From Malus domestica (Eukaryota > Streptophyta > Magnoliopsida > Rosales > Rosaceae): a stretch of 64,000 bases of DNA. The notes below the pieces were generated by a model. The model was not told the origin of the DNA, made no database searches, and worked only from the letters and a program-made list of their open reading frames with translations. The stretch spans positions 23,704,501 to 23,768,500 of the forward strand of contig NC_091666.1 of assembly GCF_042453785.1 (NCBI RefSeq), given 5' to 3'. The position numbers and the translations under genes are program-made. Below are positions 5,509-58,982 of this stretch, in pieces. Each line of letters opens with the position of its first letter. Within the stretch, counting starts at the first letter, position 1.

Positions 5509-5894
5509 TCTCAGAAATGATGAATGAGAAATGAAGTGCAATAAATCTCTGAAGTAAGGGGAAAATTCCTACAAGCAATAACTCTCTGAATGTACTTCTT
5601 GCACACAATTGCTGCCCTTATAAAAGAAATAGCAACAGGGCCGTTGGTTCAAAAATCGAAGAGGCACCACTCTCCGGATTTTGAAGAGGCATCACTTTCC
5701 ACACGCAACATCATCTCCTCGGGTACCACAGATAACTTTGCCAAAGATCTCTGACAAAGTTTAGACACATAAATTTTGAAGATCCAGCTACCCTACTATT
5801 ACCCACAAGGGTAAAGGAACAGCACCACTGCTTGATAACTAGAAAGTCTCAATGTGTGTCAACCTCCGTGCTCCGTGGCAAGGCATACTGGAAA

Positions 5895-6215: not shown

Positions 6216-7488
6216 CACACGCAACATTAGCTTTCCAGATATCACATACCACTTTTTCAAAGTGCTCTGACAAAGTTAAACCACGTGAAGCTTACAGCTC
6301 CCACTACATTGCTACGACCAAGAAGGGTAAATGAATAGCATTACTACTTATTGTTAGGGAGACTCTTATATATGTCGACATCCATCCTCCACGGATAGGT
6401 AGACCTGCAAAAATGCTCAACCCTTCCTCATATCTAAGAGGGCACTCCCAACGAAGCCTCTCGAAATACTCAGTTTTCTTCCCCCGCCAATAATACCTAT
6501 GTAAACCAGCCACACTAGAGCAAGAGTATCTCATATCATCAGGGTCAAAGCCAAGAGTATCCCATATCATGTTTTTTCCCTGTCTTTTCTTTTACCTTTG
6601 TTCTTACCTGCAAGACAAGGAGAAAGCGAGCAATCAGTCAGCACTTAGAATCAAGCTTCCAGTCAGGAACTGACTGCCTGGAACCCCTTGCCTGATTACT
6701 TACTTGGTATTGCGCTCGAGTACTCATCTTCAACATCTTATGCTTCCAGAAAAGATACCACATCTGCTTGAGGAACAGATATGGCAAGTGAGAAAGATAC
6801 AAAAAAACATGTGGAGACAAGCGCAACGGAACACGTGCTGATTCATCTATTACTTCGTCAACAGCAAAAGTATCCCATATCATCAAGGTCGAACGCACTC
6901 TTGATTTGATGGACTTGTTTTGACTCTCAAATTCTTGAGTTGGCCTTATACTCTAGAGGAAACCAGAAAACCCTCCAGCCCAGTTCAAAAATAAGCATGT
7001 GGAAAGTTACTTCTTCAAAAGCAAAAGTACCTCATATCATCTATTCTCCATTTGCTTCTCCTTATCCTTATTGCTGTTTACGACACAAGGAGAATGAGAA
7101 CAATCAACCGGAAGCCGAAGTCGAACCTCTGATCCAGGTTGCTTGCTTGGAAGTCTGATTGTTTACCTTGTTTGTTACCTCTTTCAGCAAATGTCCTAGC
7201 TCGGCGACTTGGGGGACTCCTACTATAGGGTTTTGTATCACACTTGACCAAGCCTGAAACTACAAGTAAGCTTCAAGTGAAATTGATACATTACCTTGTG
7301 CATCTTCATCGGTTAAAGATACCACCCCTGGATGGAGGAAAAATACTTCCAGAAAAGATGCCACAGCTACGTATGAGACAAATAAGGCAAGTGAAAATGA
7401 TACCACATTTCGGTACTTAGAAGTTTGGTGATTACTCAATGGATTGGATCTTGCAAGTCCCCAACCGAGGAGCTTCCCTCAATCGGGA
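6216..7488 (+). other. Noncoding 3' region of the Tat-like element before the LTR
   Basis: No gene is seen. Most of the stretch has an inverted homologue in 52240-53400, which marks it as element sequence. A purine-rich motif ACTTGGGGGACT near 7210 resembles the tract before the LTR and is an alternative LTR boundary. Confidence 0.6.
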
Positions 7489-7502
7489 ACTTAGGGGAGC
7501 AC
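7489..7502 (+). promoter_or_regulatory. Polypurine tract before 3' LTR
   Basis: The purine-rich run TTAGGGGAGCAC lies immediately before TGTTTGTACC. Its position fits the plus-strand primer of an LTR retrotransposon. Confidence 0.5.
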
Positions 7503-8017
7503 TGTTTGTACCATACTTGACCAATCTCGAAACTACTGAGCACCGGTCAATGTTATACCTTCAAGGACCCAGAAGAGTTTCCCTCCAACAAGAAGGCAAA
7601 TCACAGCACAACACGTGTTGACATCAGAAGCCAATCATAGCGCGACATGTGTCAACATCAGAAGCCAATCACAACACAACACGTGTCAATGTAAGAATGA
7701 AACTAGAAACTCTCTTCTATAAATAGAGATCATTCTCTCACAATATGGCCGAATGTCATTTGTACTAAATCATTCACTAGTACTCACTAAAGGAGAGCTT
7801 GAACCTATGTACTTGTGTAAACCCTTCACAATTAATAAGAACTCCTCTACTCCGTGGACGTAGCCAATCTAGGTAAACCACGTACATCTTGTGTTTGCTT
7901 CCCTGTCCCTATCCATTTACATACTTATCCACACTAGTGACCGGAGCAATCTAGCGAAGGTCACAAACTTAACACTTTCTGTTGTACCAAAGTCCTCACT
8001 GATTTTGTGCATCAACA
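7503..8017 (+). repeat. Probable 3' LTR of the Tat-like element
   Basis: The segment starts TGTTTGTACC and ends GTGCATCAACA, giving TGTT/AACA inverted ends and a length of 515 bp. It contains a TATAAATA box at 7718-7725, as expected for a U3 promoter. A homologous stretch lies inverted at about 52001-52245, lacking the last 50 bp and the U3 part. The start is inferred from the purine tract and TG; the 5' LTR is outside the window so the boundary is unproved. Confidence 0.55.
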
Positions 8018-9539
8018 AACCTAAACAAAGGTATGCCATCTTGTTTGTAGGAGTTAGCGACCTCATATTAACCATAAAATAACCATTTGTGATAAAAATC
8101 CCGTTAGTAAAAATAAACCAAGATAGATTATACAAAAACCAATTACAAAGCTATAATCCTCAATGCACGGAGTGGCATGACCAACTAGTTGGTTCTCCTA
8201 CTATATTTTTGGGGGTGGGAAAAGCAAGATTTTGGGCGTAGGGTGGATATTTGAGTCTTGTATCGACCCTGGATGGATAAGATTTTGGATGGAAATGGGG
8301 CCTACTTTGTTAGCAAACCCTTGTGAAAATGAGACATCGAGAAATTTTTAGTTGTGACGGAAATACGGATTGTACACTACGTGTTTTTATTTAAGTGGTG
8401 GAAAATGTTAATTTTTAAGTTATTAACATTTTAACACACATAACCCACCATTTATATAGAGACACGTGGTATACCATTTCGTGTGACGGTCACACTGAAA
8501 AATCTCTCGAACAACAGGGCTTGTGCATTAATTTTACTAACACGCGATTATCCAATGTGGCACAGCACACGGTAGAACGAAAATGTGCATAAGTGATTTT
8601 ATGACCATTGTCATCCATCGGTTGTTGCTCCTCTTGGGTTATTTTTATAATCTAATTTAATCAATTTTAACGGTAATAAAAATTTCAATGGTTCAAATTT
8701 AAATCCAACGATCAAAATATTATTATTAATTAATTCAAATCATATCCAACACCAAAACTTTATAAAATTCCAATCCATTTAAGTGTAATCCATAGAAAAA
8801 TCAATTTTTTTTATTGAAATTTGAATTTTTACATCAAAAGGTTCGTAAAAATAAAACAAGATAGATAATACAAAAACTAATTTCAAAATTATTAGGAAAC
8901 AAAAAAAAATTAAAGAAATACAAAAGTTAACGAATTAAAAGTTGAGGGTGAGAATTATAGGTCCTTTACCTTGGAAGAAAAAGCTAACCAACCTCATACA
9001 TATGAATGAATAGTTAAAAATACATGGCTAAATTTTGGGATCGGTTGGAGATAGTACAAGTTTTCCCATCCATGGTTGAGCAAATTTTGGTCTTATTTTG
9101 AGGACCTGTGAGGACCAATTACAGATTATATAAATTTAGATTCAAATGCTTAAAATATTTCACCACTTCAGTTCTCATAGAAGGAGAAGTTGTGAGCTAA
9201 GAAGAAGAAGGAAATGCTTTATGTAATAAGAAGTTAGATTGATAGGAACGTACTCGCGGGAAAGGAACTCTAGTCAAGATGAATTTGGTAGGTCAAAAGA
9301 GCGGGAACCAAAAGAAGAAAGGTGATCAATAGCCTATTGAAACTGGAGCAAGGAATGACCTATCTGAAAGTGACTAGCTCGCTTTGAAACTGGAATTCTA
9401 TAAGTAAGACCTACCTTCAAGAGTTCAGACTACCTCAAGTTCAGTTCAACTGGGCTAAAGGCACTCATTTCTTCTATAGACAACTTTATGGATTTTAAGT
9501 TAGTTTTGCTTTATTGAATTGTCAAATATTTTATGCCTT
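8018..9539. other. AT-rich intergenic sequence with a foldback element
   Basis: No gene is recognised. 8337-8510 is an inverted repeat: its left arm (CGAGAAATTTTTAGTTGTGA...) and right arm (...CACTGAAAAATCTCTCG) pair, and the inner arms with ACGTGT/ACACGT also pair, which suggests a MITE. The rest is low-complexity AT-rich sequence. Confidence 0.5.
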
Positions 9540-9670
9540 TGTGACACACCCCGATTTGGAATGTCTACTAGGACTCCGAATCGAGCTGTGCTGGCCGACA
9601 CTAAGAAGGTGACGAAGCCAACACAACTTGATTTGGAGTCCTAGTGGACATTCCGAATCGAGGTGTGTCA
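9540..9670. repeat. 131-bp near-palindrome, TGTGACACACC...GGTGTGTCA
   Basis: The first ~42 bases and the last ~42 bases are inverted copies around a ~45-bp centre. The segment ends TGTGTCA directly before ATTTGGTATCAGAGCC, which is where the 5' LTR of the neighbouring Cassandra element would end. It may be a small LTR-like terminus, or a foldback element that replaced the 5' LTR. Confidence 0.6.
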
Positions 9671-10041
9671 ATTTGGTATCAGAGCCAATCCTTGGCCGGA
9701 AATGTGCTGAGGAGGACATTGGGCCCCTAAGGGGGGTGGATTGTAACATCCCACATCGCCTAGGGGAGTGGATCCTACAAGCCTTATATGTATATTCTCA
9801 TCTCTACCTAACATGAGGCCTTTTGGGAGCTCACTGGCTTCGAGTTCCGTAGGAACTTCGAAGTTAAGCGAGAAATGGGCCAGAGCATTCCCAAGATGGG
9901 TGACCCATTGGGAAGTTATGTTCTCGTGTGAGTTTTCAGAAACAAAACCACGAGGGCGTGATCGGGGCCAAAAGCAAACAATATCGTGCTACGGTAAAGT
10001 CGAGCCCATGATGTGGTGAGGGCCTGGGCTGGGATGTGACA
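9671..10041 (+). mobile_element. Cassandra-type TRIM: primer site, short internal domain and one LTR
   Basis: TGGTATCAGAGCC at about 9674 is the classical binding site for initiator tRNA-Met. A short internal part follows, then the purine tract CTAAGGGGGGTGGAT, then an LTR at 9742-10041 (300 bp, TGTAACATCCCACATCG to GGGATGTGACA). The LTR contains a stretch similar to plant 5S rRNA. These are the defining traits of Cassandra, a non-coding terminal-repeat retrotransposon in miniature transcribed from 5S-type internal promoters. A matching 5' LTR is not present; a short palindrome stands in its place. Confidence 0.85.
9819..9935 (+). promoter_or_regulatory. 5S rRNA-like Pol III promoter inside the Cassandra LTR
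   Basis: CGAAGTTAAGCGAG (about 9858-9871) corresponds to the 5S A-box region and GATGGGTGACC...GGGAAGT (about 9895-9916) to the 5S C-box. The order and spacing match plant 5S rRNA, while the flanks diverge, so this is a retroelement promoter and not a functional 5S gene. Confidence 0.8.
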
Positions 10042-15863: not shown

Positions 15864-18800
15864 ATGACTCTAATAAACCTCAGCTCCCTCTCCCCATGGC
15901 TCTCCCGCCTCTCTCACCACCCTTCTCCGCCCCTTCCCATCTTTCCCACCACCACTTTTTTGTTCAGAAATATTCAATCCACTTCCATCAACTTCTCAAA
16001 GCTCCTCAGAGTAAAAGCCTCATTGGGGGAGACCCAAAACGGCAGTGGGTTGGCAGAGGACTCTGTTTCTGAGCTGTTGGACGCTGAGTTGCTTGGAAGA
16101 GTATCGGGTGCTAAAGATGCCCAGGAAGCACTCCAGCTGATCGCTGAAATGTCTGACAGAAATGGTGGTGTAGTGAGTGTATCTGATTGCTGTGCTATTA
16201 TATCGGCTGCCCTTAAGCGGAACAACCGCGACTTGGCTCTCTCTGTTTTCTATGAAATGCGTGCGAGTTTTGATCAAGGTATGGTTTTAGGCTCAATTGT
16301 TTTATATGATAACCCAGCATTTAAACTCAAAGATTTCAACTTTGGATGCAAAAAGGAAATGGGTTTGGCCATTAGTGTTCTTCTATGCAAAGTTTGCCTA
16401 GCTATTGCACACATATATGTACAATAGCACTCTAGCACTAACCGATTGGTAACTTAATACAGCACTAACCGCTTATTTTGGGTTAGCCCGACAGACAGTT
16501 TAATCTCATGATTCGAACCCTTCTTATTTTAGGGCCTCGTTCAAAAATCATCCTTGCAAAATTTCACTAAAACGTGTACCCATGTGATTGATTATTGCTA
16601 TGAACATTTCATTGATTATCAACACCGTGCCTGTGTATTTATCTGTTTGTAGTTAGATAACTGAACGGTTTTTTTATTTGAATGAGCTTTTTACGGATGA
16701 TCTTTGAATGATGAAGTAAACAATGATCGGTTCAGTTCATGGAAAACATAATGGATAGGGTCCAGATGAGTGGTTAACACCATATTAACTTACTAACTCG
16801 TTAGGCTATTGTATGTGTTTGTTATAATTTTTTTTATGAATTTAATTTATGAACATCTGGTGTTTTTAGTACTTTACTTGGTGGGGAATTTATCTTGGGG
16901 CATTGAATTTATTGCTCACTTGTTTTTGGGCAGGTGTTAATGAAGATGGCCCTCTTGTTGAGAGGTGGAAATGGTCCAGACCAGATGTGCGTGTTTACAC
17001 ATCATTGATTCTGGGTCTAGCTGCATTACTTAGGGTTTCTGATGCCATGAGGATGATCAACAATGTTTGCCGAGTTGGAGTATCTCCTGCTGAGGAGGTG
17101 AAAGCAATTATTGTTTTGCTTTTGTCTTTTTGTTAGAAAAAAGCAACACAACTACACAATAAATCTAACAGTATTTGAGAGAGATATTCGGAAAGATTTA
17201 GATGATGAATTCGGAGGAAGAACACACACAGAGCATAACTATTGAACTTCTATCATTGTATTTCATGCTAAGCATATGAGCTCGAAAAGACACTTAACTG
17301 ATGGAGATGAGAGAGAGAGAGACATAACCTCAATTCAATCTCAACCAACCATAACAACCTATCTTAAGATCAAGACACTGGTCAAATGATAAGCCCTATG
17401 AGACTTAATCAACACATCACATTTTTACACAATAGCTCAGCCTATGAGCTGAGACATAACACACATAACAACCTTGTAATGTTTTCTAATCAGCTCAACA
17501 ACTTACATACTAACACTCCCCTTTAAGTTGTGAACTGATTTCACTCCAAGAAGATCTCTCAAGTAAGTGAACTGCTCCCTTGTCAATGCTTTTGTAAAAA
17601 TATCTGCTATTTGCTCCTTAGTAGGACAGTGAATCAAGTCAATTACTCCTTGCTGCAATGCTTCCTTTATGAAGTGATATCTTCTGTTTATATGCTTGGT
17701 CTTCTGATGAAAGATAGGATTCTTAGTGATGGCTATGGCTGATGTATTGTCACAATTCATTGGTGTTGCAACTGTTTGCATTTCACCAAAATCCTCTAGA
17801 ACAAATCTCAACCAAGTAGCCTGTGCTGCTGCTTCAGAAGCACTGATATACTCTGCTTCGGCTGTGGATAGTGCAACACATTGTTGCTTGACTGAAGACC
17901 AAGAGAAAATCCCATTGCCAAAAGTAAAAGCATACCCGGATGTGCTTTTCATATCATCCTCTGAGCCACTCCAATCATTGTCACAGTATCCCATTAAGAG
18001 TGTTCCTTCACCTTTCTTGTATTCCAAACCAAAATCAAGAGTTCCTTGAACATATCTCAATACTCTCTTTGCTGTTCCATAGTGCTTGTTAGTGGGACAA
18101 TGCATAAACCGAGATAATAGACAAGCAGCGTACATTATATCAGGTCTAGTTGCTGTGAGATATAACAAACTACCTACAATCTGTCTATATTGAGCTTCAT
18201 CTGCAGCTCCACTTCCATCTTCTTTTCTTAGTTTATCACTTGGAACCAAAGGAGTACTCACAGATTTGCAATTCTGAAGTCCAAATTTCTTCAGTAGAGA
18301 TAAAGCAAGTTTCTCTAATGAATGAAAATACACTCCTCAGTTTGTATCACTCCTATACCAAGAAAATGGTGTAAAAGACCAAGATCTGTCATCTCATACT
18401 TATGCATCATCTCAGTTTTGAAAACATCCATTAACTCTTGACAATTTCCAGTATATATAATATCATCAACATAGATGGATACTATGATCAATTCTGTGTC
18501 TCCCTTGCACTTGGTGTACAGAGTTGCCTCACTGATGCTTTTCTTAAACCCACAAAGCATAAGGTATGAGTCTATTTCACCATACCAGGCCCTAGGTGCT
18601 TGTTTTAGACCATACAAAGCTTTATGCAGTCTGTAAACCTTTTCTTCCTCTTCTTGCACCACAAACCCATTTGGTTGTTCAATATATACCTCCTCTTCTA
18701 ATGCACCATTCAGAAAAGCTGATTTCACATCTAGTTGAAATAACTTCCATTTATTCTTTGCTGCTAGTGCAAGTAGAGTTGCAACAGGTGCAAAAGTCTC

Positions 18801-21800
18801 ATTAAAATCAATTCCAGGCTTTTGTGCATAGCCTTTTGCAACAAGTCTAGCCTTGTTCTTTTGAACTGTCCCATCCAAATTTAACTTTGTTTTATACACC
18901 CATTTTACCCCAATCACAGGCTTATTTGAAGGTCTTCTCACCAACTCCCATGTCTGATTTTTCTCAATCATATTCATTTCATCCTTCATTGCCTTTTTCC
19001 ATGCTTCATCCTGTGCAGCTTCATCAAAGGACTCAAGTTCAACGATACATAGGTGGCATCTCTCATAGATCTCACTCGGGTTCCTATACCTCAGTGGAGT
19101 ATTATCATACTGAGGTGAGACCAGTGAGCTTCTTGATTCACCAATGGCAGTGACTGGAGAACTTCCAGCTTGAATTTGAGACCCGTCAGATCCTCCTTGT
19201 TCATGAGATCCAGACATCTCATCATTTTATCAAAATCTGAAGATTCAACTGCAGATAAAGGAATACAAACTTCCTTGACTTTGTGTTTCTCCCAGTCCCA
19301 TCTACCATTCTCATCAAAAATTACATCTCTGGATAACAAGACCTTTTGAGTTAAAGGATTCAGTACCCTATACCCCTTTTCACAAGTACCATATCCAATG
19401 AAAACACCCATGACACTTGTTTCTTCTAATTTGTGCCTTAGATTCTCTAGAATAAGAGAATAACATACTGAACCAAACACTTTCAAGTGTTTAACCCCAG
19501 GTTTTCTTCCACTGAATTTCTCAAAAGGTGTAGTGTTCTTCACTGCCTTTGTAGGACTTCTGTTTGGCAGATACACAGATGTGTTTACTGCTTCACACCA
19601 GAGATTGTATGGAAGTTCTTTCTCATGAATCATGCATTTTGCCATCTCCACAATTGTCCTGTTTTTCCTTTCTGCTACTCCATTTTGCTGTGGAGAGTAT
19701 GCAATTGTGAGCTGTCTTTCTATCCCCAAATCTTCACAAAACTTTCCAAAATCATTTGAGTTGAACTCTCCTCCTCTATCTATTCTCAGTTTCTTTACAT
19801 GGTATCCACTTTGAAGCTCAACCATGGCTTTAAATTTCTTAAACACATAGAAGGCCTCTGATTTGTTTCTCAAGAAATATACCCAGCACATTCTTGAATA
19901 ATCATCTATGAAGGTAATAAAGTATCGATTTCCACTTAGACTTGATGTTTGCATGGGACCACACACATCTGAGTGTATTAATTCAAGTGGTTCCTTTGCT
20001 CTCCACATTGATTCTTTGGGAAATGGTTCCCTGTGATTCTTCCCCAGTGCACAACTTTGACACACAGTTTCACTGTCTTGGATTTCAGGCAGTCCCAAAA
20101 CCATCCCTTGACTCTGTAATAATTTGAGACTGCTGAAATTGAGGTGACCAAACCTCTTGTGCCATATCCTAACACACTCCTGCACATTTGTCCTCAATGC
20201 AAGCTCCTTGTTTGTGTTAAGAATTAAAGGAAAACATCTATTTCCTTTCTGCTTCACACTGACCACCAAGTTTTGTAAAGATCTATCAAACTTAGCAAAT
20301 TTTGTAAAGAAAGTAACCGTGCTCAGTCATCTGTCCCACACTTAGCAAATTTTCTGCAAGACCAGGTACAAGCATAACTTCCTTTATATATCTTCGACCC
20401 TTTATTGTTTCAATGATCAGTGTTCCCTTCCCTTCAACTTCAACCAAGACTCCAGTTCCAACTTGGACCTTGGCTTTCACTCCTCTGTCAATATCAACAA
20501 GTAAGTCTTCTCTGGATGTCATATGGCTACTACATCAACTATCTATGTACCATTCATCACTTATCTTCTTCACTTCTCCAGAATGATTTGCCTAAAACAG
20601 ATTTCCAGTTTCATCAACCTGATTAGCAAAGTTCACCTGTTGCACAATCTTGTTCGCATTACAGTACCTTGCAATATGCCCAATTTTGTTGCACTTGTGA
20701 CACTTGACCTTGTTTTTAACCCAACACTCTCCATAGTGAAGTCTATCACAGAATTTACACTTATCCCCAGTGTTGTTTGCCTCATTCTTCACAGTGAATC
20801 CAACCTTATTACTCCAATCACCCTTGTTACTCCATTGTTTCTCTTTTGGCTTAAAATTCTTGTGATATTTGTTACTGTTTGGCTGGCCATCGAACTTATT
20901 GGACTTCGGGGCAAATTTCAAACTAGCAAATGCTTTCTCCATACTACGCTCTCCATGTCTATCCAACCTTTGTTCATACCCCTTCAAGATAGCTATAACA
21001 TCTTGTGCATCTATGGTGTCTAAATCCTTAGTATTCTCTATCACAGCTGCAATACTATCATAGGACTTAGGTAAACTGATTATCAATTTCTGAACAATTC
21101 TTTGATTACTCAGATCTTCACCATAGCTCTTCATTTGATTAATCAGATCAAACAATTTAGCAATATACACAGAAAGAGATTCATTATCATTCATGCGAGT
21201 ATATTCAAAATCTCGCCTAAGACCTTGAAGTTTCACAGATCTTACTTGCTTATCACCATCAAACTCTTGTTTCAAGATGTCCCACATAGCCTTCGCACTT
21301 TCCTGAGTTGCAATCCTCGGGAAAATTTGATCTGAAACGGCACCTTGAATAATAGCCAGTGCTCTAGCATCCTTGACCACATTCTCTCGCAGTAGCTTCC
21401 TCTCTGCCTCTGTGAGTTCCTCCTCCTTTGCCGGAGCTCTGTTCCCACTCTCAACCATATTCCACTGTTCATACGAGCGAAAGATGGTCTTCATTTTGAT
21501 TTGCCAGAAATCAAAATTCTCGCCATTGAAGATTGGCGCTCGGAGTTCTCCTCCTCCAGATCCAGCCATGTTAGACACTCGAATCACTGCAATAAGCTTT
21601 TGCTGTGAATCCGAGCTCACCCACTTGTAGAAACGACACCCAGAAATTTAGATCCAACCTGGCTCTGAGGCCATGTTAGAAAAAAGCAACACAGCTACAC
21701 AATAAATCTAACAGTATTTGAGAGAGATTCGGAAAGATTTAGATGATGAATTCGGAGGAAGAACACACACAGAGCATAACTATTGAACTTCTATCATTGT

Positions 21801-24800
21801 ATTTCATGCTAAGCATATGAGCTCGAAAAGACACTTAACTGATGGAGATGAGAGAGAGAGAGAGACATAACCTCAATTCAATCTCAACCAACCATAACAA
21901 TCTATCTTAAGATCAAGACACTTGTCAAATGATAATCCCTATGAGACTTAATCAACACATCACATTTTTACACAATAGCTCAGCCTATGAGCTGAGACAT
22001 AACACACATAACAACCTTGTAATGTTTTCTAATCAGCTCAACAACTTACATACTAACACTTTCCACGTTTGGATTTGCTCCAAGCAATTAGAATTGCAAC
22101 TTTTTAAGGAAACCAGAATTGCTAGCTTTAACTACCTCTCACTGGCTTATGTTGGCTGTGTTGGTTTTAATGTGTTGAGCTTTATACTTTGGACTCCTAA
22201 AATTGTTAGTCAGAAAGCATTGTATGCACCTTTTAGTCTTGTTTTATATTATTCACTTTTTCTTGGCCTCGTGAAGACCATCACACTTGATTTGGTGTTT
22301 GCAGGTTCCATTTGGGAAGGTTGTTAGGTGTCCTAGCTGTATGATAGCTGTTGCTGTTGCACAACCACAACATGGTATTCAGGTATCCTTGACAAAAATC
22401 TTTGAACCCATCTTCTGACGATTAATCCTACTCCCTTAGTTGGGATTTTTTGTTCGAAAAGCAGCTGCTGCTCATGCCAGTTAATGTTCAGGTAGTGTCA
22501 TGTGCGAAGTGCTGCTACCAGTACGAACTTATTTCTGGCAACATAGCTAGCATTGAGTCAGAAGAAATCAGGTTGGAATTCTTATATGCTTTAAATTTAG
22601 CATTATCTATTGTCTATCTATGCTTGTGAACATGGCCAAAATCATTTGTACAGTAAGTAGTGTTATATATTGGGAATATACATCAAACTTATCACATTCT
22701 AATTTTATGTAAATCACACAGCTAATATGTGTGTGGTGTTGATCCTGGGATATTGAATTTTTCTAAGGATCTCCTCATGACGAACGCAGCATGGATGTTC
22801 CAGCTTGGAAAAGGGGACTAAGATTCCTGAACATAATGAAGCAAAGTATTCCTGCGGCTGTTCACTCCATTGTGGTATACTATACTCATTATGAATGTTC
22901 AATTTCCGATTTTAGATGCACGGCATTCCTGGACCATGTTGGATTATTGTTGATCATCATTTTCCCTCTCTTTTTTCAGGTACAAACCCCATCTGGTATG
23001 GCACGTACAAACAGGTTTGCTACTGAAACAGTTGATCTCCCAGCACAGGAAGGAGAAAGGGTAACAATTGCTCTAGCAGCTCCATCAAGTGTTTACAGAG
23101 AGGTTGGTCCCTTAAAATTTAGTCCTAAGGCACCAAATTTTTACCCTGGGGAGCCTATCTGCTTGACAAACCATGAAGATGGCCGGGAGTCAAAACTATT
23201 AAGAGCCCCCTTAAAGGATGGAGGATCGTTGCTAACTAACCCCTCTGTACTTTTTCCAATTGTTGCTGTTTTGGCCTCTGGAAATGCCGCCTCTGGAGTT
23301 ATAGACCCCACCTTCCCCCAATTCCTTCCAGTTGCTGCAGTAGCATCTCTTGCTGTTGGAGTTACTCTGAACACATTGGTTGTCCCCCAATTAAATCGTG
23401 TAAGCAGTAAGCTAGTTTTTTCTTCTATAATAACTGTAATAGGTGATTCCCAAATCACGTCCTCCCCTTTTCAAAAGGAAACGAAAAAAAATTTTGCTCC
23501 TTAGATTTCAGTTTCCTCACAACTAGTATCTGTTTCCTTCTTTGAGGATAACTTTTAAATTCTTAAGTTATTCTAGATGTTTTCGGGCGATGCAAGTAGT
23601 TTTGTTTGCTCAGTCTATATATTCTAGTCAAGAAAGTTTTGAACTGAGAAATGGATGTTGTTCTTATACTTGGTTGTTTTGTCAGCTTCCTCGGAGAATA
23701 GTGGATACAGTTGCCATCAAGCAGCAACTTTTATCGCAATATGACACACTCCAATCTCGTATAAAGGGCCTAAAAGAATCTGCTGAAAAAGAGGTAAGCT
23801 CCATGCTAGTTGTGGGTCTTTAGTAAAGTTTTCAAGTGAGTAGCTTTATGATCATAAAAAGGTAATCTAGTCTCCACAAATCTGAAGAAATATTTCAAAA
23901 TAGTTGCTAAGAGAGGTATTCATCAATGATAGAAATTGTCATTCAACGATTTTGCGGCACCAATCAATTTTTGCACCTTTCTTTTCATGCATAAGTTAAC
24001 AGAATGTATTGAAGATATAAGATAGATGATCACTTATTTCGTGTGCAGGTCTGGATGTTGGCTCGGATGTGCCAACTTGAGAACAAAATTGTTGCTGTAG
24101 GAGAGCCTTCTTATCGGTAAAACACTTCAACGTTATTGCTCTTCCTTTAAGCTATGCAGCGAATAGCAAGTTAGCTCGCCTGTGTGATAAATTTTTTTAT
24201 CTGATGTAGTTCGCTACTCTAATACAATGTTCTTTTGTTTTTGTTAATATCTAGCGCTCGAAGAAGTAAAGTCAAAAGGGTCCGAGAAGGCTTGGAAAGT
24301 TCTCTCAGGGGACGAATTGAACTTATTGACAGCTATGCAAGGGTATGATTCTTCTCTTTAGACACAACTTAACCACCCATCTCTCCCCAAAATATGTTAT
24401 CAACTAATATAGTCATGCCATCCACTTATCAGATTTCATCAATGATCGAAATTGAGGTAGAACTGGACTCCGATGTTCTTGCTGCTGAAGCAGCAAGCAA
24501 TGTGGTAAGCTCAAACTGATTACATAGTTGTTCCTCTCCCTGTATATGCCTTTAAACAAGCTAACGAGGGGGTGCTTGTTCACAGGAAAATATTGCTGAA
24601 CAGATACAGCAAACCATGGAGCTAGAAAACCTTGAAGAGGCATCCCCTTTCACTTCGAATTCCCTCTTTTTCGTAACCTAGAGAACAAATATCGCATTCC
24701 TCTGATCCATGTTGTTTGTGTATCGATTGCTTTTCTCTGCAGAGATGGAGAATACAAGTTGAAGCAAATGATGAGGCAGAAAGACTTCTTAGTTCCCAAC

Positions 24801-48708: not shown

Positions 48709-50605
48709 ATGGCCTCGGAGAGGGAAAGTTTCGACCTTTCAGGACCATTGCACCTAACTTCCATTGACTGGTAAGGTCGTTGCACCTAAACCCTTAAACT
48801 CTAAACGACTGCACCTAGCGTATGGTGTAAATGAATCTGATATTCGTTTATATCTTTACGAAAATGGTATGGAGCATGTTTTTAATGGATTTGTATCTTA
48901 AGATGATAACATAGCTACATGAAGATGGATTGTGTAGAGCTAGTTCCTTGTTATTTGGAGTGAGATGTTTACTAGATTATGTAATCATCGATCATACTCT
49001 CATAATTTCGATTATCGCTGAAGGCGTTCTGTTTCCAACATTAGGGCAATCCGCTTCCAAATTGTCGACATGAATTAATTGCATCCTTGTTTGAGCCATC
49101 CGAACACCTCGACTTTTATCAAAGTGAAAAGCTAGTATAGATGAAGATGTGAATTTTCGTCCTTATGTTATGGTTATCTTAATGTCAATTACTGACTACA
49201 AGAAGTTCAATATACTGGCTTGTGTGTTCTTGGTTGAGATCGGTACTTAATGTCTTCTTTTATATCGCACGTAGTCTATCTGCACAATTTATGTAACTTG
49301 CGTTGGCACTCAGACACACGATTATGTCATATTATTCACATTTCCATGTAGTATGTAAGATCTGGAAGTTGCTTTCTATCTTACACAAGAAACCTCCAAT
49401 TGTACAAAGTTCGTGCATGAAACTTAAAATGATTGTGTACCAGTCTATATGTTATCAAGGTTGGTCATGATGAAAATTGCTTCTATCTAGAATTCCACTG
49501 CCTCCAGTACTTTCTCTTAGAAGCTACCTTTTCCTTCTCTTTGAATTTGAAAGATGGTATGGGATTTAAAATATGTGTTATCCTATGCAGGCAGAACACT
49601 CAGCATCAAAGATCTGTTGCTGCCTGTTTGGTTCAGGGTGTCTATGTTCTTGAACGGGACCACCAAGAGGAAAGAGAAGGGCCCCAAGCCCTCGCTCCTC
49701 CTTGGTGGGAGTTCTTCCATTTTAAGCTGCTCCGTAAGCTTGTGGATGATGTTGGTTTCTCTATCTTTGGTGCCTTATACGAGTTTAAACCTCCACCGTC
49801 TCTTTGTAACCGTCCATCGGAAGGAAGCCCTTGTTATGTAATTGCCTTCCGAGGCACCTTAACAAAGTATGACTCAGTCTCACGAGATCTTGAGTTGGAT
49901 GTTGAGGTGATCCGAAATGGACTTCACAGGACATCTCGCTTCGAGATTGCTATGCAAGCTGTCCGAAATATGGTTGCTACATCAGGTCCTTCAAATGTTT
50001 GGTTAGCTGGCCACTCCCTGGGGTCAGCCATGGCAATGCTTGCTGGAAAAACTATGGCTAGCTCTGGCAATTATCTTGAATCTTTTCTCTTCAATCCGCC
50101 ATTTGTGTCGGCCCCAATAGAGAGGATTCAGGATACGAGAGTGAAGCATGGGCTTCGGTTTGCAGGCAGTGTGATTACTGCTGGACTCGCTCTTGCTATG
50201 AAGGCTAAACAGCAGCAGCAGCAACAACAACAACAACAACAACAACATAGAAGTAAACCAGAAGACGAACCATTCACTACTATGGCTGCATGGCTCCCAG
50301 GTCTATTTGTTAATCCAGCTGATGACATATGCTCTGAATATATAGGGTATTTCGAACATAGGAAAAAGATGGAGGACATTGGAGCAGGAGCCATTGAGCG
50401 GTTAGCAACCCAGAACTCTCTGGGGGGTCTACTAATGCACGCAATGGGAAAGCAGGCAGCACCTGAGCCGCCATTGCACCTCATTCCTTCTGCAAAGCTG
50501 ACTGTTAATTTAACCCCTTCAAGGGATCTGAAAGAAGCCCATGGAATTCACCAGTGGTGGAGAGACGACCTGCAATTGCTTTCTGAGGTCCACAGATACA
50601 AATAG
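48709..50605 (+). CDS. Alpha/beta-hydrolase, class 3 lipase-like (At4g10955 type)
   Basis: Two exons: 48709-48770 and 49591-50605; 1077 bp, 358 residues. The start MASERESFDLSGPLHLTSID and the split Trp codon join cleanly to QNTQHQRSVAACLVQG. GHSLGSA around Ser163 is the nucleophile elbow of a lipase/esterase, preceded by YVIAFRGT, the strand of class 3 lipases. Databases call this family GDSL esterase/lipase At4g10955, but the motif is GxSxG, so that name is misleading. Twelve Gln (228-239, four CAG then eight CAA) interrupt the protein after MKAK. There is no signal peptide or membrane segment, so a cytosolic place is likely. The substrate is unknown. In Arabidopsis the family member neighbours UGE5. 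Confidence 0.88.
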
Positions 50606-51376
50606 CGTTTCGGTATTATGGTGAGCAGTAAAGCAGCAGCCTCCAAGCTTGTTTACATCAACCAATAGTTTGGAAAGAACACAGCAAAGAAATGAGGAAG
50701 AAGAGCAATTGGAGATTGAAGAGTTCTCTATACAAGGGGTATCCTACATTACTCAGATGTGAAGCGGTTTACTGAACTTTTCAACAATCGGAGTAAGTTG
50801 AAATGATACTGATCTCATATAAGTTGTTTATTCATTTACCTTAACCGCACCGTGACGGATATTGATGGTTACTAAAATGCCTTTGTTCTAGTGCATCATG
50901 GTAAACGTGAAAGTTTGCATTCGTGATTCGTTGTTCTAGAGTTAGTTAGCATACCACTTCTCGAAAGGATCCAATTCCTCCGAAATGAAGGGTACAATTC
51001 TTTATATTGTATGGACACATAAGTACTTTGTAATCGAAAGTGCAACTCCTATTGGGACCCTCCGTCGTGTCGATGGCTTCTCAGTTTTCCGGACACAAAC
51101 ACATCCCTTTTACCGGTTGGGACCCTCCGTCGTGGCGATGGCTTCTCTGTTAACCGGACACAAAGTGACATGTGAGTGACAAGGCAGATAATTACGTACA
51201 AACTTTCCTTTTTACTGTTTTTTACCGCGACAGTGTGCAACAAACAAGGAAATAGTGAAAAAAGCAATCTCGAATCTCAATGCCATGACCAATTGGGCAT
51301 CGTTGGAGTCCTGTCTACTGTTTGGCTCTCCATTGAACTCTGCCAATTTGTTGTTTGGTTTTCCAACAATGCTTGG
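50606..51376. other. 3' UTR of the hydrolase and spacer
   Basis: A 65-bp direct repeat lies at about 51054-51165: TGGGACCCTCCGTCGTG...GATGGCTTCTC...CCGGACACAAA occurs twice. No gene is seen. Confidence 0.55.
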
Positions 51377-51393
51377 TTACTAAAAAATGAATA
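51377..51393. repeat. Left copy of 17-bp target-site duplication
   Basis: TTACTAAAAAATGAATA is identical to 57284-57300. It is followed by CAACAACAAC, the complement of the RTE tail. Confidence 0.9.
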
Positions 51394-52004
51394 CAACAAC
51401 AACAACAAAGCCTTTTCCCACTAAGTGGGGTCGGCTATATGAATCCTAGAACGCCATTGCGCTCGGTTTTGTGTCATGTCATCCGTTAGATCCAAGTACT
51501 CTAAGTCTTTTCTTAGAGTCTCTTCCAAAGTTTTCCTAGGTCTTCCTCTACCCCTTCGGCCCTGAACCTCTGTCCCGTAGTCACATCTTCGAACCGGAGT
51601 GTCAGTCGGCCTTCTTTGCACATGTCCAAATCACCGGGGCCGATTTTCTCTCATCTTTCCTACAATTTCGGCTACTCCTACTTTACCTCGGATATCCTCA
51701 TTCCCAATCTTATCCTTTCTCGTGTGCCCACACATCCCACGAAGCATCCTCATCTCCGCTACACCCATTTTGTGTACGTGTTGATGCTTCACCGCCCAAC
51801 ATTCTGTGCCATACAACATCGCTGGCCTTATTGCCATCCTATAAAATTTTCCCTTGAGCTTCAGTGGCCTACGACGGTCACACAACACGCCGGATGCGCT
51901 CTTACACTTCATCCATCCAGCTCGTATTCTATGGTTGAGATTTCCATCTAATTCTCCGTTCTCTTGCAAGATAGATCCTAGGTAGCGAAAACGGTCGCTT
52001 TTTG
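51394..52004 (-). pseudogene. RTE-clade LINE 3' fragment, piece 1
   Basis: Minus-strand translation shows [18 protein letters not shown], then [15 protein letters not shown] and GTECWAVK, and after a TGA the MQRRP...GRGRPRKTLEETL tail, all typical of the RTE reverse-transcriptase C-terminus in plants. It ends GGGAAAAGGCTTTGTTGTTG, a TTG-repeat tail, next to the target duplication. The TGA stands where Trp is expected before FGH. Its upstream end is joined in frame to LTR-element sequence. Confidence 0.85.
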
Positions 52005-53399
52005 TGATCTTCGCTAGATTGCTCCGGTCATTAGTGTGGATAAGTATATAAATGGATAGAGATAGGAAAGCAAACACAAGATGTACGTGGTTCACCCAGA
52101 TTGGCTACGTCCACGAAATAGAAAAGTTCTCATTAATTGTGAAGGGTTTACACAAGTACATAGGTTCAAGCTCTCCTTTAGTGAGTACAAGTGAATGATT
52201 TAGTACAAATGACATTAGGAAATATTGTGGGAGAATGATCTCGTAATCACGAAACTTCTAAGTATCGGAGTGTGGTGTCGTCTTGACTTGCCTTATCTGT
52301 CTCATAGGTAGATGTGGCATCTTCTCTGGAAGTACTTTTCCTCCATCCAGGGGTGGTATCTTTAACTGGTGGAGATGCACAAGGTAATGTATCAATTTCA
52401 CTTGAAGCTTACTTGTAGTTTCAGGCTTGGTCAAGCGCGATACAAACCATGTAGTAGGAGTCCCCCAAGTCGCCGAGCTAGGGGGTCTGCTGAAAGAGGT
52501 GACAGACAAGGTAAGCAATCAGAGCTCCGACTGATTGTTCACCTTCTCCCCATCTTGCAACAGCATGAAGGATAAAGAGAAGAAAAATGAGAAGAGATGA
52601 TATGAGATACTTTTGCTTTTGAAGAAGTAACTTTCCACAGGCTTATTCTTGAACTGAGCTGGAGGGTTTTCTGGTTTCCTCCAGAGTATAAGGCCGACTG
52701 AAGAATTTGAGGGTCAAAACAAGTCCATCAAATCTAGAGTATGTTCCACCCTGCTGATATGGGATACTTTTGCTTTTGATAGAGTAATGGATGTATCGGC
52801 ACGTGTGCTGTTACGCTTGTCTCCACATGCTTCCTTGTATCCTTCGCACTTGCCCTATCTGTTCCTCAAGCAGATGCGGAATCTTCCTTGGAAACATAAG
52901 ATGTTGAAGATGAGTACTCGAGAGCAATGCCAGGTAAGTAATCAGGTAAGGGGTTCCAGGCAGTCAGTTCCTGGCTAGAAGCTTGATTCCAAGTGCTGAC
53001 TGATTGCTCTCTTTCTCCTTGTCTTGCAGGTAAAAACAAGGCCAAAGGAAAAGACAGGGAAAAAGCATGATATGGGATACTCTTGCTTTTAACCCTAATG
53101 ATATGAGATATTCTTGCTCTAGTATAGCTTGTTTGCAGAGGTATTATCGGGGGGAAAGAAAGCTGAATATTTCGAAAGGCTTCGTTGGGAGTGCCCTCTC
53201 AGATATGATGAAGGGTTGAGCATTTTTGCAGGTCTGCCTGTCCGTTGGGGATGAAGGTTGACATATATAGGCGTCTCCCTAACAACAAGTAGTAATGCTA
53301 TTCCTTTACCCTGCTTGGTCATAGCACGGTAGTGGGAGCTGTCAGTTTCACATGTTTTAACTCTGTCAGAGCACTTTGAAAAAGTGGTCTGTGGTAACT

Positions 53400-55390
53400 G
53401 GCTCTCGAGATTCGGAGAACGATGCCTCTTCGATTTTTGAGAAAGCAATCATGCTGGGGGTCTGGCTCTCGAGATTCGGAGAGCAGTGTCTCTTCGATTT
53501 TTGAGGAAGTAATCATGTTGGGAGTCTGGCTCTCGAGATTCGGAGGGCGGTGCCTCTTCGATTTTGGAGCAAGCAATCTTGTTGGGAGTGTTGTCTCGAA
53601 TTTGAGTAAAGGTTGGGCATGTTTGCTAGTCGACCTTGCCACGAAGCACAAAGGTTGACACACAAGGACTTTCCAATTATCCAGCAATGGTACTGTTCCT
53701 TTACCCTCTCTTCGATTTTGAGAAAGTAGTCATGTTGGGAGTCTGGCTCTCGAGATTCGGAGGACGGTGCCTCTTCGATTTTGGAGCAAGCAATCTTGTT
53801 GGGAGTGTTTTCTCGAATGTGAGTAAAGGTTGGGCATGTTTGCTAGTCTACCTTGCCACGAAGCACAGAGGTTGACACACAGGGACTTTCCAATTATCCA
53901 GCAGTGGTACTGTTCCTTTACCCTTGTGGGTAATAATATGGTAGCTAGACCTTCAAAATTTATGTGTCTAAACTTTGTTAGTGCTGTTTCTTTGCTATTC
54001 TTTTACCTTTCTTGGTCAGAGCGATGTAGTGGGAGCTGCAAGCTTCACGTGCTCAACTTTGGCAGAGAACTTTGACAAAGTTATCTGTGGTACCCATGAG
54101 CTATTGTTGCGTGTGGGAAGTAGGTAATTGAACAGTAAGATTCATGTGCTTTCTACTTCACCAGAAATCTTCGACAGAATGCCCATAATTTCTGCAAAGC
54201 TGAGTGTGCGTGTGACAGGTGCTGACAAGGCTAGAAAAGTAGGTGCCTCTTCGATTTCTGAGATCGGCCCTCGTGGTCTCTGAGCAGCCCAGCTTTTGAG
54301 AAAGCGAGCGCCTCTTCGATTGATTCGGAGAACGATGCCTCATCGATTTTTGAGAAAACAATCATGCTGGGGGTTTGGCTCTCGAAGATTCGGGGAGCAG
54401 TGTCTCTTCGATTTTTGAGAAAGTAATCATGTTGGGAGTCTGGCTCTCGAGATTCGGAAGGCGGTGCCTCTTCGATTTTGGAGCAAGCAATCTTGTTGGG
54501 GGTGTTTTCTCGAATGTGAGTAAAGGTTGGGCATGTTTGCTAGTCTACCTTACCACGAAGCACAGAGGTTGACACACAGGGACTTTCCAATTATCCAGCA
54601 ATGGTACTGTTCCTTTACCCTCTCTTCGATTTTTAATAAAGTAGTCATGTTGGGAGTCTGGCTCTCGAGATTCGGAGGACGGTGCCTCTTCGATTTTGGA
54701 GCAAGCAATCTTATTGGGAGTGTTTTCTCGAATGTGAGTAAAGATTGGGCATGTTTGCTAGTCTACCTTGCCACGAAGCACAGAGGTTGACACACAGGGA
54801 CTTTCCAATTATCCAGCAGTGGTACTGTTCCTTTACCCTTGTGGGTAATAATATGGTAGCTAGACCTTCAAAATTTATGGGTCTAAACTTTGTTAGTGCT
54901 GTTTCTTTGCTATTCTTTTACCCTTCTTGGTCAGAGCGATGTAGTGGGAGCTGCAAGCTTCACGTGCTCAACTTTGGCAGAGAACTTTGGCAAAGTTATC
55001 TGTGGTACCCATGAGCTATTGTTGCGTGTGGGAAGTGGGTGATTGAACAGTAAGATTCATGTGTTTTCTACTTCCCCAGAAGTTTTTGACAGAATGCCCA
55101 TAATTTCCGCAAAGCTGAGTGTGCGTGTGACAGGTGCTGACAAGGCTGGAAAAATAGGTGCCTCTTCGATTTCTGAGATCGGCCCTCGTGGTCTCTGGGG
55201 AGCCCAGCTTTTGAGAAAGCGAGCGCCTCTTCGATTTCTGAGATCGGCCTTCGTGGTCTTTGAGCAGCCCAACTTTTGAGAAAGCAAAAGCCTCTTCGAT
55301 TTCTGAGATCAACCCTCGTGATCTCTAAGCAGCTCAGCTTTTGAGAAAGCAAACGCCTCTTCGATTTCTGAGCAGGCGCCTCTTCGATTT
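53400..55390 (-). repeat. Expanded ~64-bp monomer array with a ~915-bp higher-order duplication
   Basis: The monomer (GCCTCTTCGATTTTTGAG... with GTCTGGCTCTCGAGATTCGG) recurs many times. A large block is repeated 915 bp apart, for example 53830-54075 against 54745-54990, and an inner part is repeated 218 bp apart (54527 against 54745). Long open frames here come from this periodicity. Near the right end a shorter unit (GCCTCTTCGATTTCTGAGATC) takes over. Confidence 0.85.
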
Positions 55391-55533
55391 CTGAAGCTCC
55401 GTCGAGTGCAGATTTTTATAGGGGCTGGCATTAAGTTCTAAAGCACACTTGAATCTCCACCAGTAGAAGCTTCATTCTTGCACTTCTAAGATCTTGATTT
55501 GTCCGACCTCTTCTCTCTTCAACACCTTTGAAA

Positions 55534-56208
55534 ATGTCTGGCCCCTCCGACCGTCGTTTTGACTTGAACCTTGTTGAAGAGGCAGCCCCGCCTTCTCCAG
55601 ACAACATATGGCGCCCATCCTTCGTCTCCCCTACTGGTCCTCTTACCGTTGGGGATTCCGTGATGAAGAATGATATGACCGCTGCGGTGGTGGCCAGGAA
55701 CCTTCTCACTCCCAAAGATAACAGACTACTTTCCAAACGGTCTGATGAGTTAGCTGTTAAGGATTCGCTGGCTCTCAGTGTTCAGTGTGCAGGTTCTGTG
55801 TCTAATATGGCCCAACGCCTATTTGCTCGAACTCGCCAAGTTGAATCATTGGCGGCTGAAGTGATGAGTCTCAAACAGGAGATTAGAGGGCTCAAGCATG
55901 AGAATAAACAGTTGCACCGGCTCGCACATGACTATGCTACAAACATGAAGAGGAAGCTTGACCAGATGAAGGAAACTGATGGTCAGGTTTTACTTGATCA
56001 TCAGAGATTTGTGGGTTTGTTCCAAAGGCATTTATTGCCTTCGTCTTCTGGGGCTGTACCGCGTAATGAAGCTCCAAATGATCAACCTCTGATGCCTCCT
56101 CCTTCTAGGGTTCTGTCCAGTACTGAGGCTCCAAATGATCCCCCTCCGGTGCCTTCTCTTTCTGGGGCTCTACCGACTGCTGAGACTTCTCCTAAGCAAC
56201 CTTTGTGA
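55534..56208 (+). CDS. Accessory ORF of a Tat-like retroelement, antisense to its pol, intact copy
   Basis: 224 residues from MSGPSDRRFDLN to SPKQPL; an ATG two codons upstream (55528) is also possible. The N-terminal half is neutral and Ser/Pro-containing. Residues about 105-155, with SLKQEIRGLKHENKQLHRL, look like a coiled coil. The C-terminal part has three diverged Pro-rich repeats of the NEAPNDQP kind. No catalytic motif is seen. The ORF lies between pol and the 3' LTR on the opposite strand, as extra ORFs do in several plant Tat elements. It is probably a retroelement protein of unknown role and could be misannotated as a host gene. Confidence 0.65.
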   Translation: MSGPSDRRFDLNLVEEAAPPSPDNIWRPSFVSPTGPLTVGDSVMKNDMTAAVVARNLLTPKDNRLLSKRSDELAVKDSLALSVQCAGSVSNMAQRLFARTRQVESLAAEVMSLKQEIRGLKHENKQLHRLAHDYATNMKRKLDQMKETDGQVLLDHQRFVGLFQRHLLPSSSGAVPRNEAPNDQPLMPPPSRVLSSTEAPNDPPPVPSLSGALPTAETSPKQPL

Positions 56209-56469
56209 AGGCTCCCTCTTGTGTGTTTATTTTGACTCATGTATATGTACATATTTGTAGCTTATCGGGGATATCAATAAATAAGCTTTCCTTCATTTCA
56301 ACGTATTGTGTTAAATACACCAAAGCCTTCTTCGCTAAGTTCTTTGAATTTTCTTTTGTTGAAGCTTGTATGTTGAAGCTTTCTGAGTGGAGCATGTAGG
56401 TTGGGGTAGTGTTCCCTTAATTTCCCGAGTGAGGAAAACTTCTCGGTTGGAGACTTGGAAAATCCAAGT

Positions 56470-57283
56470 CACTGAGTGGGATCGGCTATATGAATCTTAG
56501 AACGCCATTGTGCTCGATCCTGTGTCATGTCCTTCGTTAGATCCAAGTACTCTAAGTCTTTTTTTAGAGTCTCTTCCAAAGTTTTCCTAGGTCTTCCTCT
56601 ACCCCTTCGGCCCTGAACCTCTGTCCCATAGTCGCATCTTCTAATCGGAGCGTCAGTAGGCCTTCTTTGCACATGTCCAAACTACCGTAACCGATTTTCT
56701 CTCATCTTTCCTTCAATTTCGGCTACTCCTACTTTACCCCGGATATCCTCATTCCTAATCTTATCCTTTCTCGTGTGCCCACACATCCAACGAAGCATCC
56801 TCATCTCCGCTACACCCATTTTGTGTACGTGTTGATGTTTCACCGCCCAACATTCTGTGCCATACAGCATCGCCGGCCTTATTGCCGTCCTATAAAATTT
56901 TCCCTTGAGCTTCAGTGGCATACGGCGGTCACACAACACGCCGGATGCACTCTTCCACTTCATCCATCCAGCTTGTATTCTATGGTTGAGATCTCCATCT
57001 AATTCTCCGTTCTTTTGCAAGATAGATCCTAGGTAACGAAAACGGTCGCTCTTTGGCATTTCTTGATCTCCGATCCTCACCCCTAACTCGTTTTGGCCTC
57101 CATTTGCACTGAACTTGCACTCCATATATTCTGTCTTTGATCGGCTTAGGCGAAGACCTTTAGATTCCAACACTTCTCTCCAAAGGTTAAGCTTTGCATT
57201 TACCCCTTCCTGAGTTTCATCTATCAACACTATATCGTCTGCGAAAAGCATACACCAAGGAATATCATCTTGAATATGTCCTA
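56470..57283 (-). pseudogene. RTE-clade LINE fragment, piece 2, 5'-truncated
   Basis: Minus-strand translation begins near [16 protein letters not shown], with the FADD catalytic box of reverse transcriptase, and runs through the same C-terminus as piece 1 to IHIADPTQ. It has TAG where Trp is expected before FGH; piece 1 has TGA there. The two pieces differ at eight or more residues over the shared part, so they come from different source copies. The 3' tail is missing because the sequence passes into the LTR fragment at 56470-56479. Confidence 0.88.
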
Positions 57284-57300
57284 TTACTAAAAAATGAATA
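57284..57300. repeat. Right copy of 17-bp target-site duplication
   Basis: TTACTAAAAAATGAATA is identical to 51377-51393. Confidence 0.9.
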
Positions 57301-57334
57301 TGAACTCTTATTTAAAACTCTTAGTATTTTAATC

Positions 57335-57655
57335 ATATAGTTTTATATTTATGATCAGAACTGTTTATACTATGAATCACACTGTAAAAATCATATCTGC
57401 AAAAAATAAATTAAAATTAAGGTCGTTTAGTCATCAAACTATTTAAAAACAAATAAACGATATTGGTAAAAGCATTAGATTGTAGCAAATACATAGATAG
57501 TTCGTAATGCTTTTATCAATATCGTTTATTTGTTTTTAAATAGTTTGATGATTAAACGACCTTAATTTTAATTAGTTTTTTGCAAAGGTGATCTTTACAG
57601 GGTAATTTATAATATTAACGGTTCTGATTATAAACACGAAGTTCTATAAATTGAC
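57335..57655. repeat. Long foldback element (~320 bp)
   Basis: Arms of about 150 bp pair nearly end to end: TTAAAATTAAGGTCGTTTAG with its complement near 57548-57575, and outward ATCAGAACTG... with ...CGGTTCTGATTATA. The loop is short, around 57480-57500. No coding capacity. Probably a MITE. Confidence 0.8.
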
Positions 57656-58982
57656 AACAAACAATTTTGAGAAATTTTGAATAGGAGTTTCTACTCATAT
57701 TTTGAGTAGCCAAATCTTGTTTTTCTCTCTCTTTAGTTACATCAGTGATGAATTCACACTTCGCACCCTACTACATAATTATAAAAGACAAGTGTTTATT
57801 GAATTACCATTTCCGCGTAATACAATACATTGTGACAGTATTTTAAATTAATTAAATGTTATTATGTAACAAAATTATTAGGCACAAATGAGATTCTTTA
57901 CTTGGTGATTGGGAGTCGGGACCCATAACCCAATATCTCTGCCTTAAACCCTCCAAATAATTAATTAATTGGGCAGATTTTTTTTATTTACCATGGTCTA
58001 AAAATCTGATCAGCTAAACATTTCCAATGGGGAATATCGTAGTATCAAACCTTACTTAAACACTAATTAATCCATCTCTCAATTCTCAAGTCTCCACATT
58101 CATTAAACCCAATGATAAAATGTCAAAAGCAAAAAGTTGAAACCTTTAGCTTTTTCGGTCCTCATTCGAGATTAGTCACGCCCTTCAGATATCGAATACT
58201 TCAGACTTCGGCAAAAATATCAAAATAAAATAAATAAATAAAGCTATGAACCACACCTTCCACTGTTCCCTCCTTCCCTTTTATTCAACTTAATTAAAAC
58301 CGTTATTGTACCGTTGCAGTTCAGTAATCATTGTTATATAAAAGAGAGGGTGCTGCTGATTCTTTCAGCAGCCAAGTTCTATCCTTTGAGCTTATCCTCC
58401 GAACTTGGCTTCTTTGCCCTTCCACTTCACATTTATCCCCATCCCTTTCTATTTGTGTGATCACGGTTAAACCACATCAACATTTTATATTCTTATTATT
58501 TTTTATCTTATTATTTTTATAAAAAAATTAATATAAAATGTTGACGTAATTTAATCGTGTTTGCATAAAATAGGAGAAGATGAAAGTATATGGAAAAAGG
58601 AAGGACAGAGAACCCGATCCTTATCCTCCCATCACTGCCAAACCCCAATCATCTCCACCTACTACTAGTAGCCTAGTACGCTTTCTGCTACCCAAAGGCT
58701 TCAACTTTATGAATTAAACCACCTAGCCTAATTAATTAATTAAGGATTAAAGAACCCTAAATTCTTCCCCAAATAAAAAACCAACCAACCAACCTAGATG
58801 CATCAGACTTCCACTTAAATTATTTGTCAAAAAATTACTTTTTTTTTTTTCATTTCCCTTGATGAAACGTGTTAACAAATTGGACACCCAAAGTTACCAA
58901 TTTTGCCAAAATCTACAAAAAGCTACTCTCTCTAATTTCACACTCACCAAATGTTAAAAAATAATAATAATAAAATTAACAG
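57656..58982. other. AT-rich spacer and 3' flank of the LEA_2 gene
   Basis: No gene or clear repeat is recognised apart from low-complexity AT-rich runs and an ATA/AAT run near 58960. Confidence 0.5.

Follow-up and report, generated by a model that had tools for sequence, protein, structure and literature searches.

A 5,890-bp composite (51394–57283) in a 64,000-nucleotide stretch of the Malus domestica genome, the whole of which we call the window (G000:C6:23704501–23768500; assembly of 651 Mb in 19 contigs), joins two pieces of an RTE-type long interspersed nuclear element (LINE) to a fragment of a Ty3-type long terminal repeat (LTR) element lying between them. We read the locus as a 5′-truncated copy of a high-copy chimeric RTE-type LINE (probability about 0.9), the RTE-clade label resting on a preliminary description of the window, the TTG tail and general background. 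The parent element would be transcribed from its RTE 5′ end on through the LTR-element piece, its own protein would prime on the target with the RTE 3′ end of that RNA, and the captured piece would travel as a very long 3′ untranslated region (UTR).

As the preliminary description had stated, the unit is bordered once per side by a 17-bp target-site duplication (Table 1). This 17-mer, TTACTAAAAAATGAATA, has exactly two copies in the window (51377–51393 and 57284–57300) and none on the opposite strand. Among 3,000 random 40-bp pairs spaced 5,890 bp apart, the longest common word measured 3–10 bases in 2,995 pairs and 12 in four; a single pair shared 17 and is probably the composite locus itself, which had been left in the sampling. 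The left (L) and right (R) RTE pieces share their orientation and are 93.5% identical along a 586-bp alignment, and the TTG tail reported at the outer left end is present from 51394 onward. Both pieces had been called 5′-truncated; R, whose frame reads ADPTQ-stop at its inner end, additionally lacks the last ~24 nt and the TTG tail, and hence is not merely 5′-truncated. The captured LTR-element piece (52001–56479) aligns to window 7967–4561 on the opposite strand. Since the reference element there is in the + sense, judged by its RNase H and integrase domains, the captured piece runs in the RTE sense, again as first described. The two inner junctions, A and B, are both real and carry the microhomology attributed to them (4 bases at 52001–52004; 10 bases with one mismatch at 56470–56479), but a third break, junction C at 52242/52243, had been missed: ~290 bp of the LTR element (reference 7436–7725) are absent there.

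The reference (window 1–8018), a Ty3-type LTR element that runs off the edge of the window, encodes RT_RNaseH followed by Integrase_H2C2 and rve, with a 95-bp tandem array (3142–3684), an antisense region and a 3′ LTR placed by eye at approximately 7502–8018. A 224-codon antisense frame that the composite inherited from the LTR element gave no match in a Pfam search.

Both inner joins recur throughout the genome. Counting pattern matches at ≤3 mismatches, with reversed patterns as controls, we found 2,496 for junction A (1,273 + 1,223) and 2,384 for junction B (1,252 + 1,132), with a reversed control of 0 for each. Junction C gave 2,803 matches, and on contig C1 49 of its 55 exact matches lie inside composites. 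Apart from the window copy, the seven sequences that best match the left RTE end (L002–L008) are unbroken across junction A at 99.2–99.6% identity, and all 20 junction-A loci extend to the TTG tail found here. At the other end, 15 of 20 junction-B loci reach window 57286, the point at which the window copy abuts its target (the final three bases fit both RTE and target), and then continue into RTE sequence absent from the window copy, which is therefore a truncated daughter; the remaining five end sooner, at varying points. Matches to the element tail outnumber those to its 5′ end (3,779 versus 1,296), as expected of a LINE.

These counts bear directly on the preliminary description, which had proposed that an RTE enzyme switched among three RNAs during this very insertion. 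A single 17-bp duplication, three pieces in one sense and microhomology at both joins would all suit such an event. The search for the junctions elsewhere, which that description had itself suggested, decides against it: both joins recur ~2,400 times, all 15 loci fetched for comparison hold every part, and four of these match the entire unit as one unbroken alignment (98.4–98.6%). The window copy was thus made from an already chimeric RNA, and a one-off origin here is exceedingly unlikely. Template jumps, nested insertions and later repair at this locus were alike ruled out by the junction counts, and the double-jump idea is left as a possible one for the founder only.

The fetched loci, each of 10 kb (L029–L043, taken from the 20 junction-B loci and all on C1), define the complete element. 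RTE, LTR-element and RTE parts are present in 15 of 15, and 14 reach the 3′ tail, L040 stopping 0.3 kb short of the end of the L piece and having no tail. A common 5′ end is found in nine and missing from six; this proportion overstates the full-length share, because 14 of the 15 extend past the truncation point of the window copy. The nine full-length copies measure 7.3–8.4 kb, and eight of them have their own target duplication of 14–19 bp. In RNA sense, the complete element consists of the 5′ end, an endonuclease and reverse transcriptase (RT) frame running to junction B, ~3.4–4.5 kb of Ty3-type LTR element, a 0.6-kb second RTE 3′ end and (TTG)n. Identity to the window copy is 95.9–99.5% for R, 94.4–98.4% for L and 91.8–99.2% for the LTR-element segments. 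Two subfamilies, long and short, are set apart by a 915-bp internal duplication; L034, L035, L038 and L041 align through both units.

RTE-clade LINEs carry an endonuclease and RT frame, make target duplications, are prone to 5′ truncation and have a very short 3′ UTR. The composite has endonuclease and RT in a single frame, a (TTG)n end, duplications of variable length and frequent 5′ truncation. Between its stop codon and tail, however, lie 3.4–4.5 kb of LTR-element sequence and 0.6 kb of RTE, and because it departs from the short-3′-UTR rule we file this LINE family, a hybrid with an LTR-element 3′ region, as a variant of the RTE clade. No LTRs bound the composite; both of its ends are RTE sequence.

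Two fetched loci have features of their own. In L033 the 16-bp duplication sits 0.5 kb further out than the shared 5′ end, enclosing ~0.5 kb of extra upstream sequence (L033:9285–9773) that possibly reflects an upstream transcription start. In L035 the composite is flanked by pieces of another, oppositely oriented composite (1–932 and 7116–9849), so self-insertion probably occurs in this family too.

The enzyme frame of the composite is its own and is under purifying selection. It runs uninterrupted for 1,057 codons in three of the nine full-length copies (L031, L033 and L041), with matches to RVT_1 (E about 1e-35) and Exo_endo_phos (E about 1e-9), and is broken in the other six. For dN/dS we used six of the nine, excluding L043, L029 and L037 for frameshifts and retaining L038 despite its 2-base gap and both L034 and L039 despite a single stop in each. 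Ratios were 0.22–0.35 in the nine long-versus-short pairs and 0.22–0.52 over all fifteen. Three long and three short copies are separated by 33 fixed differences, distributed 11/6/16 over the codon positions (17 synonymous, 16 not). Each element holds two copies of a 585-bp block, which allows a comparison within the composite: over 50 long–short pairs each, pN/pS was 0.20 for the coding R block and 0.91 for the non-coding L block (the L block of L040 and the R block of L042 are too short and were omitted). Selection thus acted after the chimera existed, while the family split in two. Of the 15 R copies, four contain in-frame stops; every one of the 15 L copies has at least one, the old end of the RTE frame included, and 11 have two or more. 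The pairs in these tests are non-independent, and all copies but that of the window come from one contig.

Could the composite be moved in trans by a plain RTE, as SVA and LAVA, which are partly LTR-derived and non-autonomous, are moved by LINE machinery? The six broken frames would agree with this, and any protein recognising an RTE tail could move the composite. We nonetheless find a non-autonomous composite improbable, given the three uninterrupted frames, the selection on the frame and the census of RTE sequence on C1. There, 49 matches (≤1 mismatch) cross the junction-A position uninterrupted in RTE sequence: 37 have an exact junction B at the right distance and 10 another composite mark, so that 47 of the 49 lie in composites; two are unclassified, and none has a plain RTE tail. 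Conversely, when the first 100 exact tails on C1 were checked, not one had any of the 49 at plain spacing (exact tails being set against ≤1-mismatch matches), although 27 of these tails are unclassified and may be truncated copies, mutated composites or plain RTEs. Nor did a plain RTE appear at any of the 43 tail occurrences in the fetched loci, a biased sample chosen by composite matches and with some overlap.

LTR-element sequence makes up about half of the full-length element, which would suit an LTR retrotransposon holding internal RTE insertions. One candidate is HODOR, described as a high-copy LTR element of 9.2–9.7 kb in apple and pear (KX869746.1, 9,716 nt; PMC8558331, PMC6901071). According to those descriptions the composite shares with HODOR its high copy number, great length and LTR-type matches; at 7.3–8.4 kb and with LINE ends it differs from a 9.2–9.7-kb LTR element, the two being set apart by description only. 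RTE ends with a (TTG)n tail, duplications of 14–19 bp and 5′-incomplete copies make an LTR retrotransposon with internal RTE insertions very unlikely. The LTR element does also stand alone, with 4,090 uninterrupted matches over the A site and 1,891 over the B site.

Several observations nevertheless weigh against our reading of the locus as one copy of a high-copy chimeric LINE. The fetched copies are all on C1, and their choice favoured long ones. For one full-length copy, L041, we found no target duplication, and in the five truncated copies that were fetched with both ends included the duplication search gave none longer than 9 bp, so a clean single insertion is less secure for these copies. 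The counts, moreover, fall unevenly from 3′ to 5′ (2,496 for A, 2,803 for C, which is further 5′, 2,384 for B and 2,499 for an RTE site 0.6 kb beyond B), which we attribute to patterns of differing sensitivity.

The insertion target is the left terminal inverted repeat of a multi-copy foldback miniature inverted-repeat transposable element (MITE). When the flanks are joined (51365–51393 + 57301–57317), they pair with 57675–57721 as a 47-bp inverted repeat of 76.6% identity that spans the join. Because the pairing crosses the joined flanks, it supports an empty site with a single copy of the 17-mer; a single clean insertion into such a site is well supported, and with it the earlier claim that one duplication marks one insertion event by LINE machinery. 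An interval on C14 between the same flanking sequences, probably the homoeologous locus, measures 1,583 bp against 6,833 bp here (~5.2 kb shorter); the insert is missing there, but the divergence is too great for the exact site to be recognised. A pattern spanning the MITE edge, with ≤3 mismatches allowed, matched the composite locus only, so the uninterrupted 17-mer appeared in no other MITE copy.

How the founder arose is a separate matter, on which we hold the odds for template jumps to be about even. Synthesis would have started on one RTE RNA and left it after ~0.6 kb; an LTR-element RNA may have been copied next, with one internal break, before synthesis switched to another, distinct RTE RNA where a short stretch of matching sequence lies at that RNA's stop codon. 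Two diverged RTE sources for L and R are likely from the sequence comparison: within one copy, L and R differ with a pS of 0.14 and a pN/pS of 0.32 (14 copies), the pS being about three times the between-subfamily value (0.04–0.05) and the pN/pS below the ~0.55 expected from drift of an identical L. Seventeen fixed differences separate the L copies as a whole from the R copies (8/1/8 by codon position, nine synonymous), small numbers taken without an outgroup. The RTE 3′ end near the proposed switch can fold as a small hairpin, whose z of −1.3 is not significant. Weighing against jumps, junction C brings the number of breaks to three or more, and junction A is also what an ordinary truncated RTE would leave on inserting into an LTR.

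That last point is the starting place for read-through (3′ transduction), by which an RTE upstream of an LTR fragment already holding a truncated RTE would have been transcribed to the second tail and inserted whole. Junction A has the form of an ordinary 5′-truncated insertion into an LTR, leaving B, with its 10-bp matching sequence, as the sole unusual join, one that could be a DNA deletion. Yet the upstream RTE should then retain its TTG tail and last ~24 nt, both missing at B, and the half-composites expected on this route did not appear in the exact-match lists for C1: none of 20 uninterrupted LTR B-site matches has junction A or C at composite spacing, and none of 73 junction-B matches has an uninterrupted LTR A-site. 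We regard read-through as possible but on balance doubtful. DNA repair, in which a break within a single RTE insertion was filled with LTR-element DNA and part of the RTE was duplicated, would suit the microhomology at both joins; it is unlikely, since the L–R divergence suggests two RTE lineages that had already diverged under coding constraint. For junction C itself, a splice origin was rejected (the ends read show no GT–AG borders and no clear microhomology), and a transcription start is unlikely, the break lying only ~10 bp past the start of a TATA-like box by the usual spacing rule. Returning to template jumps, we tentatively suggest that an autonomous LINE may have permanently swapped its short 3′ end for 4–5 kb (an LTR piece and a second RTE 3′ end, from a different RTE RNA, in two to three jumps) and become the main or only active RTE in this genome.

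Plant RTE-clade LINEs are reported to end in (TTG)n (PMC3747384). The composite shares this 3′ end, but downstream of its frame come 3.4–4.5 kb derived from an LTR element and then a further RTE 3′ end that is non-coding. Magnaporthe and mouse have tripartite LINE chimeras, described as three fused transcripts with duplications of 14–16 bp and ascribed to double template switching; the Magnaporthe chimera with its 14-bp duplication is a precedent for template jumping (PMC2104539). As presented there, the chimeras are single loci and the Magnaporthe sites lack microhomology, whereas the composite has thousands of matches, an enzyme frame and microhomology at its joins. LINE-1 chimeras, reported to arise when LINE RNA recombines with other RNAs and proposed to shape LINE evolution, are described with the foreign piece on the 5′ side (PMC13174262); in the composite it is the 3′ region that is replaced. 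SVA and LAVA are likewise presented as high-copy composite retrotransposons (PMC4432496, PMC7353768), from which the apple composite differs in carrying an enzyme frame. In the titles and abstract openings of the literature searched, no RTE/LTR-element/RTE family is described, and we claim nothing wider than that.

LINE template jumping is known mostly from single dead loci or enzyme-less parasites (PMC2104539, PMC13174262; otherwise general background). Here a multi-part chimera kept its enzyme frame and reached thousands of matches, so that a jump or read-through product worked and was no dead end. The family illustrates how large a stretch of foreign sequence an RTE-type LINE can accommodate in its 3′ region, and it separates the coding role of RTE 3′ sequence (R) from its tail role (L). 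If the 3′ end was indeed exchanged, the released 3′ duplicate would give each long element its own neutral control alongside the copy under selection. Match counts multiplied by segment lengths put the family very roughly at 18 Mb, near 3% of the 651-Mb assembly, and its recognition may help to sort high-copy repeats now called LTR elements in apple-like genomes. Published RTE-BovB totals are 11.0 Mb in apple, 2.2 Mb in European pear and 4.4 Mb in Chinese pear (PMC3974708), an excess in apple that would fit a burst in the apple lineage.

Table 1 Features of the composite locus and its target in the window.
Feature	Position	Strand	Evidence
Left end of target MITE (resumes at 57301)	51365..51393	.	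joined flanks pair with 57675–57721
Left 17-bp target-site duplication	51377..51393	.	exact repeat, two copies in window
L piece, RTE 3′ end of ~0.6 kb with (TTG)n tail at 51394; element 3′ end, non-coding in composite	51394..52004	-	586 bp, 93.5% to R piece
Junction A, 4-bp overlap TTTG	52001..52004	.	alignment ends overlap
Partial LTR, Ty3-type element	52001..52242	-	92.6% to window 7967–7726
Junction C, internal break	52242..52243	.	alignment break; reference 7436–7725 skipped
3′ internal region of Ty3-type element, without gag-pol	52243..56479	-	main matches 83–90% to window 7435–4561
915-bp tandem duplication, marker of long subfamily	53409..55236 (units 53409–54321 + 54322–55236)	.	units 96.3% identical
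Open frame, 224 codons from ATG, antisense to LTR element and inherited from it	55534..56208	+	open reading frame
Junction B, 10-bp overlap with one mismatch, at RTE-frame stop codon	56470..56479	.	alignment ends overlap
R piece, 3′ end of RTE enzyme frame, 5′-truncated in window copy	56470..57283	-	RVT_1 match under gathering cut-off
Right 17-bp target-site duplication	57284..57300	.	exact repeat; first 3 bases also fit RTE sequence
Rest of target MITE	57301..57721	.	multi-copy, 75–80% identity to other full-length copies; inverted repeat

Elsewhere in the window, two 389-bp direct repeats (97.9% identical) at 17131–22060 surround long minus-strand frames resembling a Ty1-copia element; the single frame checked against Pfam gave no match. 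A lipase class 3-like frame (49433–50605) stops ~0.8 kb upstream of the composite insertion.

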